Of a DNA stretch of 64,000 nucleotides, positions 2,728 through 63,438 are shown piece after piece. This stretch comes from Sporanaerobium hydrogeniformans (GTDB lineage Bacteria > Bacillota > Clostridia > Lachnospirales > Cellulosilyticaceae). The DNA is taken from positions 248,001-312,000 of the forward strand of contig NZ_PEDL01000001.1 of NCBI RefSeq assembly GCF_002735925.1, written 5' to 3'. The position numbers and the translations under genes are program-made. The notes beneath the pieces are model-generated. The model was not told where the DNA came from, did not search any database, and saw nothing but the letters and a program-made list of their open reading frames with translations. Position 1 is the stretch's first letter. Each line of letters opens with the position of its first letter.

Positions 2728-4152
2728 ATGAATGAAAAAGATTTAGAGAAGATTGTTGCAGAAGTGACAAGGCAGTTAACTGGTAATAAGGTAGCTCATA
2801 AAGCATCCCTAGTATTTCCTAAAATTAACTTAGGAAAAGGTGTATTCGATAACATGGAAGAGGCTATTGAGGCTGCCAAAAAGACTGAAGAAGAACTTAA
2901 AGTAATGCCCCTTGAATTTAGAGACAAAATAATTGCCCGTATACGTGAAAAAATTATGGAAAACAAAGAACTTCTTGCAGAATTTGCTGTTCACGAAACA
3001 GGTATGGGAAAAGTTGGACATAAAATTTTGAAGCATGAATTAGTAGCAAAGAAAACACCAGGTACAGAATGTATTGAACCTAAGGTGTGGACAGGAGACC
3101 AAGGACTTACTCTTGTAGAGAGAGGACCTTTTGGTGTGGTAGGAGCTATTACTCCTTCTACAAATCCTTCAGAAACAGTTTTTTGTAATGCTATTGGGAT
3201 GATTGCAGCAGGAAATACAGTAGTATTTAATTCTCATCCTAATGCAGCACAAACTTCTAATTTAGCGGTACAATTAGTAAACGAAGCAGCTGAAGAAGCA
3301 GGTGGACTTACCAATGTAGTAACAACAGTTATGAAGCCTACTGCTGAATCAGGTAACATCCTTTTTAAACATCCTGATATACAACTTCTAGTGGCAACTG
3401 GTGGTCCAGGTGTTGTAAAAGCTATTTTACAAAGTGGTAAAAGAGGGATTGCAGCAGGTGCTGGAAATCCTCCAGTACTTGTAGATGAAACAGCTAATAT
3501 TCGTAAGGCTGCAGCCGATATTATAAATGGTGCAACTTTTGATAATAACCTACCTTGTATTGCAGAAAAAGAAGTCATTGTTGTAAATGAAGTAGCTGAT
3601 GAGCTTCTTTATTATATGCAAGCTGAAAACGACTGCTATAAATTAGTAGGTGAACAAATTGAAAAGCTTGTACAAACTGTATTGGTTGAAAAGAACGGTA
3701 AGAAAATAATTAACCGTGACTTTGTAGGGCGCGATGCCACAGTTATTTTAAAAGCAATTGGTATTGATGCACCAGAAAATACACGTTGTATTATATTTGA
3801 GGCAGATGAGAATCACATCTTAGTTGTTGAAGAGTTAATGATGCCTATTTTAGGAATTGTTCGCGTAGCCAATGTAGATGAAGGAATCGCAATAGCCCAC
3901 AAGCTTGAAGGCGGCAATAGACATTCAGCACATATGCACTCTTCCAATGTGCATAATCTTACAAAATATGGCAAAGTGCTAGATACAGCCATTTATGTAA
4001 AAAATGCACCATCTTATGCAGGAATTGGTTTTGGTGGAGAAGGCTATACCACCTTTACGATTGCTAGCAAAACAGGTGAAGGACTGACGAACGCACAAAG
4101 TTTTACTAAAGCAAGAAGATGTGTCATGGCAGAGGCACTTTATATTAGGTAG
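2728..4152 (+). CDS. pduP: CoA-acylating aldehyde dehydrogenase (PduP/EutE type), microcompartment cargo
   Basis: A 474-residue ALDH-superfamily enzyme that would oxidise an aldehyde with NAD+ and CoA to an acyl-CoA. Here the aldehyde is probably L-lactaldehyde, giving lactyl-CoA. The nucleophile is C277 in NNLPCIAEKE, and the ITPSTNPSET and TGGPGVVKA segments are typical of EutE/PduP. The first 20 residues (NEKDLEKIVAEVTRQL) form the amphipathic encapsulation helix and are linked to the catalytic part by a short variable segment. PduP-like enzymes act in series with PduL, encoded further down the operon. The start follows GAGGAGGG. The substrate is inferred from the aldolase; propionaldehyde cannot be excluded if a diol dehydratase is encoded elsewhere. 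Confidence 0.92.
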   Translation: MNEKDLEKIVAEVTRQLTGNKVAHKASLVFPKINLGKGVFDNMEEAIEAAKKTEEELKVMPLEFRDKIIARIREKIMENKELLAEFAVHETGMGKVGHKILKHELVAKKTPGTECIEPKVWTGDQGLTLVERGPFGVVGAITPSTNPSETVFCNAIGMIAAGNTVVFNSHPNAAQTSNLAVQLVNEAAEEAGGLTNVVTTVMKPTAESGNILFKHPDIQLLVATGGPGVVKAILQSGKRGIAAGAGNPPVLVDETANIRKAAADIINGATFDNNLPCIAEKEVIVVNEVADELLYYMQAENDCYKLVGEQIEKLVQTVLVEKNGKKIINRDFVGRDATVILKAIGIDAPENTRCIIFEADENHILVVEELMMPILGIVRVANVDEGIAIAHKLEGGNRHSAHMHSSNVHNLTKYGKVLDTAIYVKNAPSYAGIGFGGEGYTTFTIASKTGEGLTNAQSFTKARRCVMAEALYIR

Positions 4153-41407: not shown

Positions 41408-41752
41408 GGGGGTGCACTGGTTTCGACGGGGGTCACGTCTATAGGGGCAGCCATCCGTAGTACGCCGGAGTCTACGTTAAAAGCTGGCATTAAAATTAAA
41501 CGCTGAAGATAATTTAGCAATCGCTGCCTAGTTTGCAGCAGTCCGCCTAGGCCCTCCGCAGCCTAGATCCGGGCTTCGACTTGCGGACCCTTCACCTGCC
41601 AAAGCTTTGCGGCAACGTGAATACTATGAAGCTACTGAAACCAAGAGCCAGCCTTTAGGAGCTTGGTAGAGGGAATGTCAAAGATAAGGCTATGATGGTA
41701 GAGACCACAATATCCGGGCTTTCGGACAGGGGTTCGATTCCCCTCACCTCCA
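41408..41752 (+). ncRNA. ssrA: Transfer-messenger RNA (tmRNA)
   Basis: The 5' end GGGGGTGCACTGG is followed by TTTCGACGGGG, as in all one-piece tmRNAs. The 3' end has the T-arm GGTTCGATTCCCC and the acceptor strand CACCTCC (41745-41751), which pairs with GGGGGTG (41408-41414) with one wobble. The tag frame begins at the GCA at 41487-41489 and stops at TAG 41529-41531. It encodes ALKLNAEDNLAIAA, with the protease-recognition end. CCA is not encoded. The prophage begins immediately after the discriminator base. The recombinase gene on the minus strand runs 121 bases into the 3' part. Confidence 0.97.
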
Positions 41753-43239
41753 TTGTCGGCATCCACAACAGATATTAATTCTATTTTGTCAGGATGCACA
41801 ATGACTTTTTTAATAAACTTTTGGATGATAACTCTTTGTTGCTCCAAAGGTTTATTTTTTATGTTTTTATTACTTTCTAGCCACTCTATAATACGTTGTT
41901 TACTTGGTAGAACAACGCTTTTTTGTTTTATTTCTGCATCAGACAATCTTAGCGTTAAATCAGATTTTTTACTTTCTAATATATCCATTTTCTCTTTCAT
42001 ACTGGGATGAAACATTCCAGCAGCTATAGCAGAGACTATATTATCTATTTCAGTCTGTGTTTTCTGAATCTCTCTTTTTATATTAGAAATTGTTTGTGGC
42101 ATATATCTATTTGTTTTTTTTGCTTGCTCGAATACTATGTCTGCTATATTACATATATTTGTATAGCTTAACAAATTGTTTTCTAAAAACTCTATTATAA
42201 TACCTTCAACTAAATCTTTATTAATTGATTTTGCTTGGCAATTCTTAGTCCTTTTTCTAGTATTGCACTCGTATGTTACATATAAAGACTTATTCCTTCC
42301 ACTAAATTTTCTATTTCCAACCATAGCTCCACCACAATTAGAGCATACAATTATTCCGCTAAGTAAATATATTTCTTTTGACTTTTGAGCAGCTTTATAT
42401 CCTTGACTACTATTATTAAGCCTATTATTTACATTTTCCCACATTTCTGGTTCTACTATTTTTGGAACTCCTCCAGATATACGTATGATATCATCTTCTG
42501 ATTTTAAGTATACGTTTCTTTTTCCTTGTTGCTTTTGCCCTGTTTTATTAAAAACATATTCCCCTTTGTATTTTTCATTTTTCATAATTGTAGTAATAGC
42601 ACTTTTAGAAAAATCTTTACCAAGCTTTGTCTTTCTGTTTTTTAATTTTAGTTCTTTAAGTATTCCCCCATAGCTACTACCTTTTGAATACATACTGAAA
42701 ATTATTTTTACAGTATCAGCTTCATATTCGTTGATAGTATAAGTTTTATCTTTTGCAACATCGTATCCAAGAGGTGGCTTACCACCAGTGTGTTTACATT
42801 GATACGCTGTCTCCTTCATTCCTTTCATAACCTCTCTTGACAAATTAGCAGAGTAATATTCTGCCATTCCTTCCAAAACAGATTCCAATATAATTGATTC
42901 AGGGCTATCGTCTAAATTTTCAAGCACGGAAATTAAACGTACTTTGTTTTTCTTGAGTTCTTTTTTATAAAATGCGCTGTCATATCTATCTCTTGAAAAT
43001 CTATCTAATTTATGGACTATAACTATATCGAATAGTCCTTTTTTAGAGTCTCTTATCATATTTAGAAACTGTGGTCTATTATCGCTTGTGGCAGACTTTG
43101 CTTCATCTGCATATATTTTTATTAAATGGTAGTTATTTTTTTCTGTAAAGTCTTTAATAGCTCTCGTTTGAGCTTCTATCGATTCCTCTCTTTGGTTGTC
43201 GCTTGAGTATCGGCAATACGCTACTGCTCTTTTTTTCAT
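41632..43239 (-). CDS. int: Large serine recombinase (phage integrase)
   Basis: 535 residues. The N-terminal resolvase domain has MKKRAVAYCRYSSDNQREES with catalytic Ser12. A recombinase domain follows (GGKPPLGYDVAKD), then a zinc ribbon (CSNCGGAMVGNRK ... CNTRKRTKNC) and a coiled coil around residues 380-470. It would integrate and excise the prophage. The start at 43239 has AAGGAG about 10 bases upstream; a frame extended to 43281 has none. The last 40 residues are encoded by the complement of ssrA, so the C-terminus in the integrated state differs from that in the free phage. Confidence 0.93.
   Translation of the reverse strand: MKKRAVAYCRYSSDNQREESIEAQTRAIKDFTEKNNYHLIKIYADEAKSATSDNRPQFLNMIRDSKKGLFDIVIVHKLDRFSRDRYDSAFYKKELKKNKVRLISVLENLDDSPESIILESVLEGMAEYYSANLSREVMKGMKETAYQCKHTGGKPPLGYDVAKDKTYTINEYEADTVKIIFSMYSKGSSYGGILKELKLKNRKTKLGKDFSKSAITTIMKNEKYKGEYVFNKTGQKQQGKRNVYLKSEDDIIRISGGVPKIVEPEMWENVNNRLNNSSQGYKAAQKSKEIYLLSGIIVCSNCGGAMVGNRKFSGRNKSLYVTYECNTRKRTKNCQAKSINKDLVEGIIIEFLENNLLSYTNICNIADIVFEQAKKTNRYMPQTISNIKREIQKTQTEIDNIVSAIAAGMFHPSMKEKMDILESKKSDLTLRLSDAEIKQKSVVLPSKQRIIEWLESNKNIKNKPLEQQRVIIQKFIKKVIVHPDKIELISVVDADNGGEGNRTPVRKPGYCGLYHHSLIFDIPSTKLLKAGSWFQ
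41725..41765. other. Left attachment site (attL) at the 3' end of ssrA
   Basis: Chromosomal tmRNA sequence passes directly into phage sequence here: the T-arm and acceptor stem are intact and the recombinase gene lies on the other side. The exact crossover and the core repeat cannot be set without the right end, which is outside the window. Position is therefore approximate. Confidence 0.7.
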
Positions 43240-43324
43240 TATCTCGCATCTCCTTAGTATTAGATATGTAAAATGGTTCATTATTAATTGTTATTCTATA
43301 AATATACTTAAAATACTCCTTCAT
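43154..43324 (-). CDS. Small open frame overlapping the integrase start (uncertain)
   Basis: A 56-codon frame beginning MKEYFKYIYRITINNEPFYI, with the ribosome-site-like GGGAG 6-7 bases before its ATG. It overlaps the first 86 bases of the integrase gene in another frame and is the first start codon after the predicted integrase promoter. It may be a leader peptide that couples or limits integrase translation, or a chance frame. I recognise no family. Confidence 0.3.
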   Translation of the reverse strand: MKEYFKYIYRITINNEPFYISNTKEMRDNEKKSSSVLPILKRQPKRGIDRSSNESY

Positions 43325-47406: not shown

Positions 47407-47761
47407 AGAAGAACACGACTTGTACATATCACAAGCTATCAAAAACCTTGTGAAGGAAGAAACGTCTTTTAATCTAGTAAACAGAGAAGCATTCAGTGAT
47501 TGGATGGGTGTTTACGGTTATATCAAAGAGGAACTTGAAGAAGCATCAGAAGCTTTAGTAGATACAGCCGAAGAGCACGAGAAGCTGTGGAGACTTATTA
47601 GAAATAATGCTTATACACCTGAACTGGTATTACGTACGCAGGTCCTAGTAGAAACAGCATTAGAAATCATTCATGAAGCTGTTCATGTAGCAGCAGTAGG
47701 GATGAAGGCTATTGAACAATTAGGGGGTGATCCTTTTGGGAAGAGGCAAGAAATGGACTAA
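47390..47761 (+). CDS. Hypothetical phage protein (helical)
   Basis: 123 residues, helical, with an acidic central part (YGYIKEELEEASEALVDTAE) and a long C-terminal helix (VLVETALEIIHEAVHVAAVG). The repeated E-x-x-E pattern resembles MazG-like pyrophosphohydrolases, but the full motif is not present, so no function is claimed. The start at 47390 follows GAGGTG. Confidence 0.65.
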   Translation: MLAGSKEEHDLYISQAIKNLVKEETSFNLVNREAFSDWMGVYGYIKEELEEASEALVDTAEEHEKLWRLIRNNAYTPELVLRTQVLVETALEIIHEAVHVAAVGMKAIEQLGGDPFGKRQEMD

Positions 47762-48500
47762 GGAGGAGATTGAGTTCCTAGAAGAAAGCTATGGACAACT
47801 TTCAGTAGAAGCCATTGCTAATAGGCTTAATCGAACACTCAGTTCTATTGATAACAAGTCCTATAGATTAGGTTTGGGTGCCATTGCTGATGCAGGAGAG
47901 TACATCACCTTTAATAGGGTGGCTCAAGTCCTTTATAAAAAGCCGAACTCCTCTTGCAGAGACTATTTAATTGCACATGGGATACCTGTTAAGAAAAAGA
48001 AGTTTATCACAACTACGTTTTTAATTGTTTATCCAAAAGACCTATGGAAATGGCTTAAGGAAAATAAGGATAAAGTTAACTTTAAATATATGGAGCCTGG
48101 TGATTTTGGGTATCCAGAACCTAAGTGGGCAGACATAAAAAGACAATCAGATAAAGCTAATGCGAAATTCAATGGTAGACCGTGGAGCCGTAGTGAAGAA
48201 AAGCAACTTATATTCTTGGTTAATCAATACAAGTACACCAATAGGCAGTTATCAGTATTGTTGAATAGAACAGAGTGCGCTATATATAGAAAGCTTATTG
48301 AGCTAAAGGTTATGGCGAGACCTCTTCGTGCAGATCCACATAGTGTATGGACCAAAGAGCAGATTGATTTATTACTGCAGCTAAAAGCTCAAGGTTATAA
48401 CTACCACGATATAGCTTTAAAACTAGGTAATAAATCAGTAAAAGCAATTAAGGGAAAGCTTGAACGAATGGCTAAGGAGGAAAAGAAGTGCGCTATTTAA
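47736..48500 (+). CDS. SANT/Myb-like DNA-binding protein
   Basis: 254 residues with three similar HTH-type units: KKWTKEEIEFLEESYGQL, WSRSEEKQLIFLVNQYKYTN and VWTKEQIDLLLQLKAQGYN. Each has tryptophan-spaced helices and ends in an IDNKSYRLG- or IYRKLIEL-like recognition helix. It is a likely sequence-specific DNA-binding protein of the replication region. TTG at 47736 is chosen because AGGGGGTGAT lies upstream; the GTG at 47727 is inside that site. Confidence 0.75.
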   Translation: MGRGKKWTKEEIEFLEESYGQLSVEAIANRLNRTLSSIDNKSYRLGLGAIADAGEYITFNRVAQVLYKKPNSSCRDYLIAHGIPVKKKKFITTTFLIVYPKDLWKWLKENKDKVNFKYMEPGDFGYPEPKWADIKRQSDKANAKFNGRPWSRSEEKQLIFLVNQYKYTNRQLSVLLNRTECAIYRKLIELKVMARPLRADPHSVWTKEQIDLLLQLKAQGYNYHDIALKLGNKSVKAIKGKLERMAKEEKKCAI

Positions 48501-52980: not shown

Positions 52981-53730
52981 ATGAAAGAAAAAAACGAAAT
53001 CGCAGTAATTAAATTTGAAGTACCAGCATTACCAGAGGAAATCGTTGTAGCTATGGCTGAGGAGATGGATGGTCTTGAAGAACTCTTTGACTTTGATCGT
53101 ATAAAGATTCCTTCTGGTGGTGGTCTTGCCTTTGAAGTGCCTGGTGAGGATGAAGAGAACCCTGATGTGGTGAAGGAAATTAAAGGTGTAATTGTAGATC
53201 ATCACCCTATCAATGCTTATTGGCCAGCTAAATACGAAGGAGCAAACCAAGCACCAGAATGTAGTAGTATGGATGGCAAAGTAGGCAGTAGCGGTAGAAA
53301 CTGTAAGAACTGCCCTCACAATAAGTTTGGTTCAGATGGTAATGGTAAGGCTTGCAAAAACATGCATCGCGTCTATGTGCTTACAGAAGGGTCTATGTTC
53401 CCACAGCTCTTAACACTACCACCTTCAAGTCTTAAGAACATTAGCAACTTCATCATGAAGCAAATTATTATGAAAGGACATAAGAGCTCAGGTGTAATCG
53501 TTAAGATCACTCTTAAGAAGGCTACTAATGCGAATGGAATTGTTTATAGCCAAGCAGTATTCACAGTTGATAGTGTACTTGATACCGATACAGCGGCTCA
53601 AATGGCTAGTTACAGCCAAATGATTAAGGAACAAACAAGAAAGATAGCAATTACAGATATTGTAGATGAGTATGTTTCAAGTGATGGTGTACCAGCTCAA
53701 GACAGCGAACCAGATGATATGCCATTTTAA
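52981..53730 (+). CDS. Putative phage ssDNA-binding protein with SSB-type acidic tip
   Basis: 249 residues starting MKEKNEIAVIKFEVPALPEE. It has a four-cysteine segment (CSSMDGKVGSSGRNCKNCPH, then a Cys a few residues on) that could bind zinc. A beta-rich domain follows, and the protein ends in SEPDDMPF. That acidic end with Pro-Phe resembles the partner-binding tip of bacterial SSB. The primase-helicase just downstream ends in a similar MPF tail. The name is inferred from the tip and position; a fold search is needed. Confidence 0.6.
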   Translation: MKEKNEIAVIKFEVPALPEEIVVAMAEEMDGLEELFDFDRIKIPSGGGLAFEVPGEDEENPDVVKEIKGVIVDHHPINAYWPAKYEGANQAPECSSMDGKVGSSGRNCKNCPHNKFGSDGNGKACKNMHRVYVLTEGSMFPQLLTLPPSSLKNISNFIMKQIIMKGHKSSGVIVKITLKKATNANGIVYSQAVFTVDSVLDTDTAAQMASYSQMIKEQTRKIAITDIVDEYVSSDGVPAQDSEPDDMPF

Positions 53731-53784: not shown

Positions 53785-56370
53785 TTGGATACTAACGTTG
53801 ATATTGATGGAAGGATTAACTGGGAACAGTTCTATACACCATATGTCAAGCAAGGAAAGAAAAGTGGAGATAACATTATAGGACTGTGTCCTTTTCATCA
53901 AGACAGTAACCCTTCATTTTCAGTAAGTTTAACAAATGGGCTCTATAAATGCTTTGCGTGTGGTGAAGAAGGCAACCCTACAACGTTTCTAGAAAAGATA
54001 GAGGGTATTAATAGCAAAGAGGCTTACAAAAAGCTTTTAGAAATGGCTGGCTATGATACGGAAAGCACACCTAGAAAAAGTGATAAGATTATGCCTTATA
54101 CACTAGACGATTACGCAGCAGATAAAGGGTTTACAGTAGAATTTTTACAGAAACTTAAGATTAAAAACGTTAAATTGGGTATAGCTATACCCTATATGGA
54201 CACTGAAGGTAAGTTCGTAAGAAACCGTATAAGATACGGGCATAATCATACCATGCGCTTTAGCTGGGGTAAAGGCGGAGACTTATGCCTTTATGGCTTA
54301 TGGAAGTTAGATAAAATCAGAGCTACTAAAGAGGTTGTTTTAGTAGAGGGTGAATCAGATACACAAACCCTATGGGTTTTAGGTAAGCCTACTATGGGTG
54401 TACCTGGAGCTGCTACTTTTAAGAGAGATTGGTGTAAGTATTTAGAAGGTATTGAGCGCGTATATCTACATAAAGAGCCAGACCAAGGCGGAGAAACGTT
54501 TATTGGTAAAATGCTTGAGAAGTTAAAAGAAGGCGACTATAAAGGTGAAGTCTATGTATTTAGCCTTCCTTCCTACAAGGATCCTAGCGATATGTACACT
54601 AAGATTAAGGACAAGGAGAAGGTTCGTGAGCTAATAGACATGCAGCTTAAAGCTGCTACTAAGGTAAATCTTAGCCAAGTAATAGAAAGCGTTATAGAAT
54701 GCTCACCTGTTAAGCTCAAGCAGCTCAACAACTATAGGATTGATGATAGTGGTGTATATATGTTTAATGCTCAAGCGCAAGAATGGCGCCATATATGTAG
54801 GACTCCTTTAGTCTTGTCAAAGCGCATTAGGAATATTGAGACAGATGAGGAAAAGGTTGAACTGGCCTATAAGCGTGACGGCAGGTGGCATTATATCATC
54901 GAGAAGAGGTCCATAGTGTTTCAAAGCAGGAACTTAGTTGGACTTGCTGATGTAGGGATAACAGTAACGAGTGAAAATGCTAAGTTTTTAGTACGGTACC
55001 TACAGGAGCTAGAGGCTGTTAATTTTGATATTTTAAATAAATGTGAGTGTGTTACTCAGCTAGGATGGCATGATGATAGGTTTTTGCCATATGGTGATGA
55101 TAATTTGATTGTAGACGTAGAGAGCAATGCTAAGATGTGGGTTAATGGCTACAAAACAAAAGGTGAACTTAATGATTGGATTAACTTCGTAAGTAGACAC
55201 AGAGAAAGTAGTCCGATCATTAGAGCTTATATAGCGGCAGCATGTGCTACTCCGTTTTTAAGGCCACTAGGACAACGTATCTTTTATCTGTATAACTGGA
55301 GTGATACAGAGGGTGGTAAAACGGCATGTCTTAACCTAGCACTTAGTGTATGGGGTGATCCTACAAAGCTTATGCAGACATATAATAGCACGAGTGTAGG
55401 TCTTGAATTTATGGCTAGCTATATGAATGACTTACCTCTTGGACTTAATGAGCGTCAAGCAGCAGGTAAGGACCAGGCAAAGCTAGAGACAGATGCTTAT
55501 CGGTTAGCTGAAGGTAAGGGAAGGCTTAGAGGAAATAAAAAAGGTGGATTGCAATCTAGAGGAGAGTGGCGAAGTATTATTTTGGCCAATGGTGAAGAAC
55601 CGTTTATTACACCCAGTACAATGTCAGGTGTAAGCACAAGAACAATAGAACTTTACGGCAAGCCATTCGCTCAAGACGCAGATGCAAAGAGCGTTTACGA
55701 GTTTATCGGCGGGAATTACGGCACCATTGGGAAAGATATTGTTTCAAGGTATCTAGGTAAAGATAAGCTACACGATATTGTAAAGATGCTTAAGCAGCTT
55801 AATAAGATTATTGATGATGCACTTAGACAGGCCCACTCTACAAAGAAAAGTTCCAATATATCTGCTGTGGCGTTTATATCGGCTATAGATGTTTTTTTAT
55901 CCGCCAATTACTTCAATCCAGATGAAGACCAAAACGTTTTGCTTAAAAGAACGCTTGATATGGCAACATTTATCTTAAACCAAGTTGAAAGTAAAAGCGA
56001 AACAGACATTGTTGAGAAATTTTACAACGATACCCAGGACTGGATGAGCATTAATAAGAATAGGTTTATCTTTGAGAAGAACATACCAAGCAATGAGATC
56101 TATGGGCTTATTGAAAGAAGTGGTGTAAGAGGAGTATTTTACTATGTGTATCCCAAAGTATTTGAGGACTTTTGTAATAAAGAGGGACAAAGCTACAAAA
56201 AGATGTTACAAGGTTTTGGTGAGCGCGGCTATATACAAACCTTAATGGATGGAGATAAGCTGAGGACCCAGGTAAGAAAATCAATAAATGGTAAACAAGG
56301 AAGGGTTATTCAATTTTATTTTGAAGGTGATTTTGAGCCTCCAGAGGAAGATGAGAAGATGCCATTTTGA
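53785..56370 (+). CDS. Phage primase-helicase (CHC2 zinc finger, TOPRIM, DUF927-type ATPase)
   Basis: 861 residues. The zinc finger has C35, H38, C56 and C59 (LCPFHQDSNPSF, YKCFACG). A TOPRIM-like segment is VVLVEGESDTQTLWVLGKP. The C-terminal ATPase has the DUF927-type P-loop WSDTEGGKTACLN and NERQAAGKD. It would prime and unwind phage DNA. TTG start after AAGGAGG. The C-terminal end is DEKMPF, much like the SSB tip. Confidence 0.9.
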   Translation: MDTNVDIDGRINWEQFYTPYVKQGKKSGDNIIGLCPFHQDSNPSFSVSLTNGLYKCFACGEEGNPTTFLEKIEGINSKEAYKKLLEMAGYDTESTPRKSDKIMPYTLDDYAADKGFTVEFLQKLKIKNVKLGIAIPYMDTEGKFVRNRIRYGHNHTMRFSWGKGGDLCLYGLWKLDKIRATKEVVLVEGESDTQTLWVLGKPTMGVPGAATFKRDWCKYLEGIERVYLHKEPDQGGETFIGKMLEKLKEGDYKGEVYVFSLPSYKDPSDMYTKIKDKEKVRELIDMQLKAATKVNLSQVIESVIECSPVKLKQLNNYRIDDSGVYMFNAQAQEWRHICRTPLVLSKRIRNIETDEEKVELAYKRDGRWHYIIEKRSIVFQSRNLVGLADVGITVTSENAKFLVRYLQELEAVNFDILNKCECVTQLGWHDDRFLPYGDDNLIVDVESNAKMWVNGYKTKGELNDWINFVSRHRESSPIIRAYIAAACATPFLRPLGQRIFYLYNWSDTEGGKTACLNLALSVWGDPTKLMQTYNSTSVGLEFMASYMNDLPLGLNERQAAGKDQAKLETDAYRLAEGKGRLRGNKKGGLQSRGEWRSIILANGEEPFITPSTMSGVSTRTIELYGKPFAQDADAKSVYEFIGGNYGTIGKDIVSRYLGKDKLHDIVKMLKQLNKIIDDALRQAHSTKKSSNISAVAFISAIDVFLSANYFNPDEDQNVLLKRTLDMATFILNQVESKSETDIVEKFYNDTQDWMSINKNRFIFEKNIPSNEIYGLIERSGVRGVFYYVYPKVFEDFCNKEGQSYKKMLQGFGERGYIQTLMDGDKLRTQVRKSINGKQGRVIQFYFEGDFEPPEEDEKMPF

Positions 56371-58691: not shown

Positions 58692-59062
58692 AATTCGACT
58701 TTGAGTAACTTGTTTTTATTTACATAAATAAGTTTAAATAAAGAAGAAATAGGCTCCAGTGGTCTAGTGTGGTCTAGGTAGTGGTCTAGGAAACGATACT
58801 CTTAAACCCTTGATAATACTACATTTAGACCACTAGACCACTTAGACCACTACTTTTACACCTATAAAGAAATCAAGTTGCAAAACGAGTTGAGTTAGTC
58901 TCTGTTATCAACTTATATATATAGTATATTAAATTTGGTGGTCTAGGTGGTCTAAGGGGACTAAATGTAGTAATACCAATGGTTTGAAGGCTGTTTTTTT
59001 AGACCACTAGCCTTTTTCCAGTGGTCTAGTGTGGTCTAGTTTTTGAAAATGAGGTGAAAAAG
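58692..59062. repeat. Non-coding region with 11 copies of GTGGTCTA in both orientations
   Basis: GTGGTCTA occurs at 58759, 58769, 58781, 58938, 58947, 59021 and 59031 (plus). Its complement TAGACCAC occurs at 58826, 58833 (first base C) and 58843, and at 59000. Three direct copies face three inverted ones around a 36-base spacer. TAGACCACT (59000-59008) and AGTGGTCTA (59020-59028) make a hairpin with an 11-base loop. ACTACATTTAG and CTAAATGTAGT are a further inverted pair. No gene is here. A phage origin, regulator-binding array or packaging signal would fit; the sequence alone does not say which. Confidence 0.85.
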
Positions 59063-59362
59063 ATGAAAGATATTCCGTTAGAATCTAACATCCAGAAAGA
59101 TATATTGAAGTATTTAAAGTCAAGGAATGATTGCTGGTTCTTTAAGGCTCATAGTGGTAGCAGTTACAGCTCAAAAGGAACTCCTGATATCATAGGTCAT
59201 TATAGGGGATTGTTTGTAGGGTTTGAAGTAAAAAGACCAAAGGTAGGAGTGCTTTCGGATCTGCAAGCTAACACGATTAGAAAAATAAATACTACTGGAG
59301 GTAGAGCTTATATTGTTACATCGGTAGAGGAAGTAAAAGAAATACTTGAGAATGTGGGGTGA
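59063..59362 (+). CDS. VRR-NUC domain nuclease
   Basis: 99 residues: the small PD-(D/E)xK-type VRR-NUC fold. Seen are SNIQKDILKYLKSRND, FKAHSGSSYSSKGTPDIIGH with the catalytic Asp, FEVKRPKVG with the catalytic E-x-K, and LQANTIRKI. Phage members lie near terminase genes and may process recombination intermediates or packaging substrates. The start at 59063 follows GAGGTG; an in-frame GTG at 59054 is inside that site. Confidence 0.88.
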   Translation: MKDIPLESNIQKDILKYLKSRNDCWFFKAHSGSSYSSKGTPDIIGHYRGLFVGFEVKRPKVGVLSDLQANTIRKINTTGGRAYIVTSVEEVKEILENVG

Positions 59363-60591: not shown

Positions 60592-62028
60592 GTGCAAAAC
60601 ATAGATAAAAATATAATAACTTTAGGAGCTAAGATAGAACTTGCAAAACGTAGGTTCTTTTTTTATTGCCAGCTTAAAGCACCTAAGTTTTACAAAGATG
60701 ATAGACCATTTCTTATAGAGTTATGTGACACACTACAAAGCTTCTATGAAGCACAAGATGAGCAAGTCCTTATTGTTAATATGCCACCAAGGCATGGAAA
60801 GAGTCGTACAGCTTCTTTGTTTGTTGAGTGGATGTTTGGTAAGAACCAACAAGAGAAGGTTATGACAGGTTCTTATAATGACACCTTATCAACTACCTTT
60901 GCAAAGTCTGTAAGAAATTCCATACAAGAAGAAAAAGCCGATATCCTTAAGCCCGTGTTTAGTGATGTGTTTCCGGGTGTAAGAGTTAAGCGTGGGGATG
61001 GATCTATGAGCCTATGGTCATTAGAAGGTGGATACAATAACTATCTGGCCACATCACCAGGAGGAACAGCCACAGGATTTGGAGCTTCTATCATGATAAT
61101 AGACGACTTAATCAAAAGTGCTAAAGAAGCCTACAATGAAAATGTATTAGAAGGTCATTGGGATTGGTTTACTAACACAATGCTTTCACGTCTTGAAGAA
61201 GGCGGAAAGATTATTATAATCATGACTAGATGGGCAAGTGGTGATCTAGCAGGTAAGGCCCAGGAGCATTTCAAGGAACAAGGCATTAAAGTTAAACACA
61301 TAAACATGAAGGCTGTACAATCTGATGGGTCTATGCTTTGTAGTGAGATACTTTCTAAGAAATCTTACGACATGAAAGTTAAGGCAATGGGTGAGGATAT
61401 AGCAAGTGCAAACTATCAGCAGGAACCAATAGACCTTAAAGGCTGCCTATATAGTAGCTTTAAAACCTATATACAGTTGCCTAAGGATGATAAAGGTAAT
61501 TTACTATTTACACGTATATCATCCTATAGTGACACAGCAGATGAAGGCTCAGACTATTTATGCAACATTATCTACGGTGAGTATAACAAAGAGGCTTATA
61601 TTTTAGATATTTATTACACCAAGGATCCTATGGAGACTACAGAAGAAGAAACAGCTAGAAGGCTTTACCAGAATAGCGTAAATGTATCCACTATTGAAAG
61701 CAATAATGGTGGTAGAGGATTTGCTAGAGCTGTAGAAAGGATATTAAGAGAGAAGTTTGGTAGTAATAAAACTAAAATCAAATGGTTTCACCAAAGCCAA
61801 AATAAGAACGCCCGTATACTTAGTAATGCTACCTGGGTTATGGATCATATTTATTATCCAGTAAATTGGAGAGATAGATGGCCAGAGTACTATAAGGCCA
61901 TGACTAAATATCAAAGAGAAGGTAAAAACAAAAATGATGATGCTCCTGATGCCACAACTGGAGTTGCCGAGGCATTTAATAAGTGTTCAGGTGGTATTTC
62001 AGTATTAAAGCCAAAAGAGAGGAGGTAG
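60592..62028 (+). CDS. terL: Terminase large subunit
   Basis: 478 residues. Walker A is MPPRHGKSRTAS and Walker B IMIIDDLIK. The nuclease part has Asp in SYSDTADEG and DDAPDATTG. It is the packaging motor and headful nuclease. GTG at 60592 is used: AGGAGG is upstream, and an ATG overlapping it by two bases (60590) is in a frame that stops after four codons. Confidence 0.93.
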   Translation: MQNIDKNIITLGAKIELAKRRFFFYCQLKAPKFYKDDRPFLIELCDTLQSFYEAQDEQVLIVNMPPRHGKSRTASLFVEWMFGKNQQEKVMTGSYNDTLSTTFAKSVRNSIQEEKADILKPVFSDVFPGVRVKRGDGSMSLWSLEGGYNNYLATSPGGTATGFGASIMIIDDLIKSAKEAYNENVLEGHWDWFTNTMLSRLEEGGKIIIIMTRWASGDLAGKAQEHFKEQGIKVKHINMKAVQSDGSMLCSEILSKKSYDMKVKAMGEDIASANYQQEPIDLKGCLYSSFKTYIQLPKDDKGNLLFTRISSYSDTADEGSDYLCNIIYGEYNKEAYILDIYYTKDPMETTEEETARRLYQNSVNVSTIESNNGGRGFARAVERILREKFGSNKTKIKWFHQSQNKNARILSNATWVMDHIYYPVNWRDRWPEYYKAMTKYQREGKNKNDDAPDATTGVAEAFNKCSGGISVLKPKERR

Positions 62029-62031
62029 GCA

Positions 62032-63438
62032 ATGCCAGCAATAGAGTTAGAACAATTTAAAAAGATTTTAGAACGCTATAAAAATGGACATGATGAGTAT
62101 ATTAAGCAATGCAAAGTAGCGAGAATGTACTATGCACACAAGAATGATATATTAAGTGATTCAGCTCCAGCTAATAGAAACAAGCAAAAAGAAGATAATC
62201 CTTTAAGAGCAGCTGACAATAGAATCCCTCATGATTACCATGCTCAACTTGTAAATCAAAAAGCATCTTATTTATTCTCATATCCGCCTACGTTTGATGT
62301 AGGGAAGAAAGAGCTTAATGAGAAGATTAAGAAGATGCTGGGAGACAATTACGAGAAGTATTGTAATGAACTTTGTGTAGATGCTTCTAATTATCGCAAT
62401 GCATGGCTGCATGTATGGAAGGATAGCGATAGTAAAGAATTTAAGTATGCACCGGTTAATCCTATTCAAGTCATTCCTATTTACTCAAATGGATTGATTA
62501 AGGACTTAGCTGCAGTTATTCGTGTTTACTCAGAATACTTTGATGATGGTAGTACGTATTCAACAAACAACTATTACACAGTATATGAGTATTGGGATAA
62601 AGAGGGATGTACTACATTTCGCAAGAAACAGAATGCTATTAGCTTGAATGATATTGAAAGCATTAATCGATTTGTTTCAGTCAATATTGATACTGGTGAG
62701 AGCACAGAAAGTAATTATTATCAACATGATTTTGGAGAGGTACCATTTATTGAGTTTCCCAATAATAACATCAAAGATAGTGACTTAACTAAGATTAAAC
62801 CATTTATTGATGTTATGGATAACGTATTAAGTGGGTATGTTAATGATATTGATGACATTCAGCAGCTCATATGGGTACTTACTAACTATGGAGGTACTGA
62901 TTTAGATGAGTTCAGAAAAGACTTAAAGAAATATAAGGCTATCAACATGGAAAGTATGGGAGCTGATGATAAGTCAGGAGTTCAAACGATAGCTGTTGAT
63001 ATTCCAGTAGAAGCGAGAAACAAGCTTTTAGAAATTTGTAGAAAACAAATCTATGAACAAGGGCAAGGACTAGACCCTCATCCAGAAGGTGGTTATTCGA
63101 ATAGCTCAGGAGAAGCACTTAAATTCATGTATGCACCACTTGAACTAAAGGCATCACTCATGGAAATTGAGTTTAGACCAGGCTTTAATAAACTCATTAG
63201 GCTCATGGCAAAGAGTCTAGGAAAGAACGAATATTTTTCCATTAATCAAACATGGACTAGAAACTCTATAAAGAATGAGTTAGAGGCTTCTCAAATTGCT
63301 CAAAATAGTTTCGGTGTTATATCTAGAAGAACACTCTTAAAGAATCATCCATGGGTGGAAGATGTAGAGCAAGAACTCATTTACCTTGAGGAACAGGAGC
63401 CAGATCAGGAGCCTCCACTAATAGGTGGTGGTAGTTAA
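62032..63438 (+). CDS. Portal protein (SPP1 gp6 type)
   Basis: 468 residues. The N-terminal MYYAHKNDILSD and DNRIPHDYHAQLVNQKASYLF are typical of SPP1-type portals (Phage_prot_Gp6). VPFIEFPNNN and, towards the end, FRPGFNKLIRLMAKSL follow. It forms the DNA entry channel of the capsid. It starts 4 bases after terL and overlaps the next gene by one base (TAATG). Confidence 0.92.
   Translation: MPAIELEQFKKILERYKNGHDEYIKQCKVARMYYAHKNDILSDSAPANRNKQKEDNPLRAADNRIPHDYHAQLVNQKASYLFSYPPTFDVGKKELNEKIKKMLGDNYEKYCNELCVDASNYRNAWLHVWKDSDSKEFKYAPVNPIQVIPIYSNGLIKDLAAVIRVYSEYFDDGSTYSTNNYYTVYEYWDKEGCTTFRKKQNAISLNDIESINRFVSVNIDTGESTESNYYQHDFGEVPFIEFPNNNIKDSDLTKIKPFIDVMDNVLSGYVNDIDDIQQLIWVLTNYGGTDLDEFRKDLKKYKAINMESMGADDKSGVQTIAVDIPVEARNKLLEICRKQIYEQGQGLDPHPEGGYSNSSGEALKFMYAPLELKASLMEIEFRPGFNKLIRLMAKSLGKNEYFSINQTWTRNSIKNELEASQIAQNSFGVISRRTLLKNHPWVEDVEQELIYLEEQEPDQEPPLIGGGS

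Follow-up and report, generated by a model that had tools for sequence, protein, structure and literature searches.

What purpose is served by short repeats, in both orientations, crowded into a gap of 280 bp between two prophage genes? The preliminary description of this locus counted 11 exact copies of GTGGTCTA in that gap, in the order three direct, three inverted, two direct, one inverted, and two direct, and proposed an origin, a late-regulator binding array, or a packaging site. Both the number (seven plus and four minus copies, 58759 to 59038) and the order were confirmed. The window, that is, the whole 64-kb stretch of DNA analyzed, contains 13 copies of GTGGTCTA; dinucleotide shuffles averaged 1.24 copies and never exceeded 4, so that the clustering is far beyond chance. 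The two copies outside the array (43071 and 57227) each carry 2 mismatches to the 10-base consensus of the array iterons, aGTGGTCTAg.

The iteron array and the prophage that carries it

The copies split into two sets, 58758 to 58851 and 58937 to 59039, with an AT-rich stretch between them. The features of the array are as follows.

58758..58851, unstranded: left iteron set, aGTGGTCTAg on + at 58759, 58769, and 58781, a spacer, then on - at 58826, 58834, and 58843; slots match those of other phages
58804..58816, + strand: spacer element AAACCCTTGATAA, which corresponds to the AAACCC/AAAGCC..CCTTGA element seen in other arrays
58818..58828, + strand: ACTACATTTAG, one arm of an inverted pair
58852..58936, unstranded: AT-rich center, probable melting region, 74% AT versus 64% for the window
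58937..59039, unstranded: right iteron set, + at 58938 and 58947, a spacer, then - at 59000, and + at 59021 and 59031; slots match those of other phages
58961..58971, + strand: CTAAATGTAGT, the second arm of the inverted pair
58977..58992, + strand: spacer element CAATGGTTTGAAGGCT, from a by-eye comparison of two sequences

A plasmid origin of the RepA/RepE iteron type (direct repeats of ca. 20 bp in one orientation) does not fit the window iterons, which are ca. 9 to 10 bp long and lie in both orientations. The extra inverted pair ACTACATTTAG/CTAAATGTAGT, thought earlier to tie the halves together, is real: it is exact over 11 bp and sits inside a longer 31-nt pair with 84% complementarity. 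The hairpins once suggested are not needed for the best explanation of the array, although the spacers between iteron blocks still carry a conserved element of the AAACCC/AAAGCC type. The array of the SaPI-like element PT1028 of Staphylococcus aureus has the first 11 bases of CAATGGTTTGAAGGCT, CAATGGTTTGA, in its corresponding spacer.

The surrounding element comprises a recombinase-like integrase open reading frame (ORF) beside a tmRNA gene, regulators, an SNF2-type helicase, a primase-helicase, an AntA antirepressor, a VRR-NUC/RecU-like endonuclease, and terS (terminase small subunit by PHROG match). The tmRNA gene (41408 to 41755, + strand), the only match to Rfam, overlaps the 3' end of the integrase-like ORF (41632 to 43281, - strand); given this overlap, the prophage is probably inserted at the tmRNA gene, with part of the recombinase frame running into it. 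Judging from their translations, the ORFs at 60592 to 62028 and 62032 to 63438 resemble genes for the terminase large subunit and the portal protein. Since terminase genes are present and more than 20 kb already separates the integrase-like ORF from the end of the window, we consider the element a prophage and not a PICI (ca. 15 kb, without phage structural genes). The protein encoded at 47727 to 48500, described earlier as SANT-like, has Myb/GcrA-like DNA-binding matches. Two further genes of the element have the following coordinates.

53785..56370, + strand: primase-helicase, the proposed initiator, with a DnaG Zn-ribbon, a DUF927 helicase, and a C-terminal HTH_56 domain (Cch helix-turn-helix)
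59054..59362, + strand: VRR-NUC/RecU-like endonuclease, directly 3' of the array (PHROG 93 endonuclease, E value of 3e-23)

The array lies 3' of the primase-helicase gene, 2,389 bp from its end, with small ORFs intervening. It sits between the early genes and the terminase genes, adjoined by the AntA antirepressor (58074) and a PHROG 31049 protein (59346), a position that would suit an operator through which a phage regulator, either a late activator (e.g., ArpU-like) or an antirepressor, controls the genes that follow. The start of terS, only ca. 0.9 kb downstream, would in turn suit a packaging (pac/cos) site for the terminase small subunit.

Arrays in related phages and their common layout

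A direct DNA search for the window array in phages gave nothing meaningful because the letters of the iterons differ between phages, and a protein search was therefore needed. Single-protein scans with the primase-helicase detected no relatives, but an alignment query did; the VRR-NUC neighbor as a query retrieved five loci only. By tblastn, phages with related primase-helicases were found, among them THSA-485A and FP_Epona, which have 10 copies of CGGTTACC and 10 copies of AGGTGAAA, respectively, packed in each case into the ca. 290 bp that directly follow the primase-helicase gene on its 3' side. We fetched 80 viral contigs, providing 69 nonredundant loci with enough 3' sequence, and counted an array when a 350-bp stretch 3' of the gene contained a single 8-mer six or more times, with copies on both strands. 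Arrays were present in 52 of the 69 loci, compared with none in upstream DNA of equal length and none in shuffles. Jekyll, AC844P1, and phiRg507T2_3 fell under this threshold, with repeats visible by eye. Most arrays start 1 to 184 bp past the stop codon, and seven are displaced by 2.4 to 4.5 kb from the primase-helicase gene (L087, L090, L097, L109, L111, L118, and the window). Locus L102 has a second repeat family, AAAAACGT (positions 3518 to 3847; 10 copies, seven + and three -), which overlaps the iteron array and extends past it.

Thus, what recurs in related phages is the layout and not the letters of GTGGTCTA, each phage using an 8-mer of its own. Among these relatives, the array tracks the primase-helicase gene, whatever the neighboring genes. 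This argues against the packaging site, since the array stays at the primase-helicase gene when terS is ca. 2.9 kb (THSA-485A) or ca. 6.1 kb (FP_Epona) away, and we give that proposal almost no credence. It likewise argues against the operator, to which we return below.

With motifs oriented alike, most arrays share one set of slots, and each fills most of them: -(0), +(15), +(27), and +(39), a spacer, -(86), -(95), and -(104), the AT-rich center, +(200) and +(208), a second spacer, and -(256), +(278), and +(288). Against a template made of FP_Epona plus two optional slots from other phages, and written after the arrays, including that of the window, had been seen, all 11 window copies fit within 6 bp, orientation included; the best random placement reached 9, once in 3,000. 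When the window positions were kept and the orientations alone were shuffled, the full score of 11 was obtained in 10 of 3,000 cases. The middle region was AT-richer than its own contig in all 47 arrays compared. Of the 47 left spacers, 23 contained AAAGCC (1.0 expected), and of the 47 right spacers, 16 contained CCTTGA (0.4 expected); AAACCC was enriched in array spacers as well.

The C-terminal winged helix and the letters of the iterons

We compared the letters of the iterons with the sequence of the primase-helicase. Against PDB sequences, this protein matched 8tch (SaPI Rep; E value of 1.3e-25) and 5dgk (SCCmec Cch; E value of 1.7e-10). Two stretches of its gene are relevant here.

56005..56325, + strand: C-terminal winged helix (HTH_56), residues 741 to 847, the proposed iteron-binding domain (Pfam HTH_56, E value of 1.8e-16)
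56263..56283, + strand: codons of wing residues 827 to 833, three of which (827, 831, and 833) covary with bases 4, 6, and 9 of the iteron

Searching PDB sequences with the C-terminal domain or its profile produced no meaningful match, and its structural matches came from fold comparison only. An AlphaFold2 model of the C-terminal 222 residues (mean pLDDT of 88, pTM of 0.61) consists of a helical part and a winged helix, and its best matches among solved folds were Cch (Z score of 13.2), SaPIbov1 Rep (12.0), and TcpK (10.0, with an rmsd of 2.2 over 88 residues).

We measured the mutual information between each variable iteron position (register AGNNGNNAS) and each protein column in 44 loci, leaving the window out. 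The best of ca. 704 columns was residue 827 for base 4, residue 831 for base 6, and residue 833 for base 9. At residue 827, R or H went with G in 9 of 9 cases and E with C in 9 of 10; at residue 831, M went with A (4/4) and K or Q mostly with G (4/4 tallied); and at residue 833, R or K went with C (23/23) and W or Y with G or A (21/21). The window itself, with R827, was predicted to have G at base 4, and G was found, but S833 with A at base 9 falls outside the rule.

The rule was then fixed and applied to clusters outside the training set, all of which shared less than 95% identity with it. Correct predictions for bases 4, 6, and 9 numbered 33 of 40, 24 of 31, and 35 of 42, compared with maxima of 25, 24, and 34 in 10,000 permutations, so that the score for residue 831 was equaled by the best permutation. 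Between sister pairs, a base change was accompanied by a residue change in 13 of 16, 10 of 11, and 10 of 11 cases, respectively; among 556 columns, residue 833 ranked 1st, 827 ranked 3rd, and 831 ranked 24th. Given the permutation tie and this rank, the rule for position 6 and residue 831 is the weakest of the three. In one sister pair (L045 and L047, 92% identical), R changed to E together with G to C. Some predictions failed, mostly in distant homologues. Iteron positions 3 and 7 had no reader of their own, the best columns being 827, the residue paired with base 4, and 418, which is not part of the winged helix. In L078 and L080, which have very similar scaffolds, all iterons differ at positions 3 and 7 (AGGTGTCAG versus AGATGTTAG) and residues 827, 831, and 833 are identical; therefore, other residues must read these two positions.

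This covariation also bears on the operator. The letters of the array covary strongly with the winged helix of the primase-helicase, which supplied the best of ca. 704 columns in a comparison that scored primase-helicase columns only. Together with the persistence of the array at the primase-helicase gene, this leaves the late-regulator array of the preliminary description unsupported, and we judge an operator very improbable.

A precedent for this mode of reading is TcpK of plasmid pCW3 with its oriT boxes (5vfx/5vfy), a winged helix of the same fold. TcpK binds 9-nt tandem repeats through a β-wing placed in the major groove, the usual recognition helix making a single backbone contact (PMC6137059). 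Unlike the primase-helicase, it is a conjugation accessory protein acting at an origin of transfer, and neither a helicase nor a replication origin is involved. In our predicted model, the covarying residues are placed on or beside the wing strand of the TcpK-like winged helix, with 831 and 833 on that strand itself and 827 where the preceding strand ends. The β-wing reading of TcpK fits the covariation but falls short of proof for the primase-helicase. By this analogy, the winged helix would bind each iteron, and its wing strand would read bases 4, 6, and 9 in a manner close to that of TcpK on its boxes. Going further, we lean toward a nearly one-residue-to-one-base origin code in the primase-helicases of this phage family (827, 831, and 833 to bases 4, 6, and 9). 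Because the wing would read the bases almost one to one, the scaffold could stay fixed while all 8 to 11 iterons are swapped together upon a wing change, giving many mutually distinct replicons. Such a code would be testable and would let protein sequence predict origins. It also raises the question of by what route ca. 10 repeats change jointly with their positions fixed.

A probable replication origin of the SaPI/PICI kind

The features described above have a counterpart in the origins of SaPIs and PICIs, so that the earlier remark that no listed feature type explained the array was mistaken. PICI origins always consist of two iteron sets flanking an AT-rich region, an organization that their authors considered common to no other known bacterial replicon, and pri-rep-ori segments of SaPIs and PICIs drive plasmid replication (PMC6092414). 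In SaPIs, the iteron origin lies directly 3' of the rep gene and is recognized by the C-terminal domain of Rep (PMC7581432). As in SaPIbov1, SaPI1, EfCIV583, and EcCICFT073, and in PT1028, where we read the array, the short iterons of our phages fall into two sets flanking an AT-rich center, 3' of the gene for a related DUF927 helicase. The window has the cognate protein, with DUF927 and an HTH_56 domain matching 8tch/5dgk, and the covariation suggests that it binds the iterons.

The half-origin spacings of PT1028 agree within ca. 4 bp (+ to -, 44 versus 48 bp; - to +, 22 versus 21 bp). With one fixed offset, only 6 of its 12 copies fit our template, since PT1028 has a shorter AT-rich gap and a different orientation of the first copies. 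PT1028 Rep can be aligned in two ways (R827/K831 when ungapped by eye; gap/Q/K at 827/831/833 by MAFFT). Wherever a rule applies, its CGGGAAC iteron is consistent with either alignment, which is only suggestive.

Unlike SaPI and PICI origins, the window array belongs to a full tailed prophage with terminase genes, its initiator is fused to a DnaG-type Zn-ribbon, and its iteron is different. Moreover, the position immediately 3' of rep is found in most relatives but not in the window. It is the prophage nature of the element and the displacement of the array from the initiator gene that set the window array apart.

Considering its constancy beside the primase-helicase gene and the covariation of its letters with the DNA-binding domain of that protein, the array is very probably the replication origin of this tailed prophage, working like a SaPI/PICI origin. 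The origin suggested by the preliminary description thus gained strong support. Counting against it are the 2.39 kb between array and gene end (as in six other loci), S833, and the lack of a GC skew switch at the array, skew being a weak test in a prophage. As we picture it, the C-terminal winged helix of the primase-helicase would bind the iterons, and helicase copies would assemble at each half-origin, perhaps as a pair of opposed hexamers. The assembled helicase would then melt the AT-rich center and load, and either the host or the fused DnaG-type portion would carry out priming. The spacer element, a conserved part of each half-origin, may be a priming or loading site.

The primase-helicase might also bind the array mainly for copy control or incompatibility, as at P4 crr or plasmid inc iterons, with synthesis starting elsewhere. 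Iteron arrays can act as control sites in iteron replicons. However, a search for the paired motif across the whole host genome gave this array as the sole match, and an AT-rich center between opposed sets is what SaPI/PICI origins have; we see little chance that copy control is its main role. The alpha protein of phage P4 is itself a primase-helicase that reads short repeats in both orientations, as proposed here for the prophage protein, but it belongs to a different helicase family, and its ori and crr are separate sites.

SCCmec Cch combines DUF927 with a C-terminal winged helix, as does the window primase-helicase. The C-terminal domain of Cch2 binds a repeat region downstream of its own gene (PMC7581432). 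Nevertheless, Cch2 has a helicase of another family and a putative origin with only three short iterons, and that study included no in vivo replication of SCC.

In the literature searched, a partial collection, we found no earlier report of a SaPI/PICI-type origin in tailed phages. Here, tailed phages and prophages from many Firmicutes show the PICI type of origin organization, a finding relevant to the source of the PICI replicon. As a minor observation, the C terminus of the primase-helicase is an acidic tail, EEDEKMPF; in most of the homologues listed, the tail is of a similar (D/E)LPF type, resembling the C-terminal tip of SSB, and the ORF at 52981 to 53730 terminates in PDDMPF.
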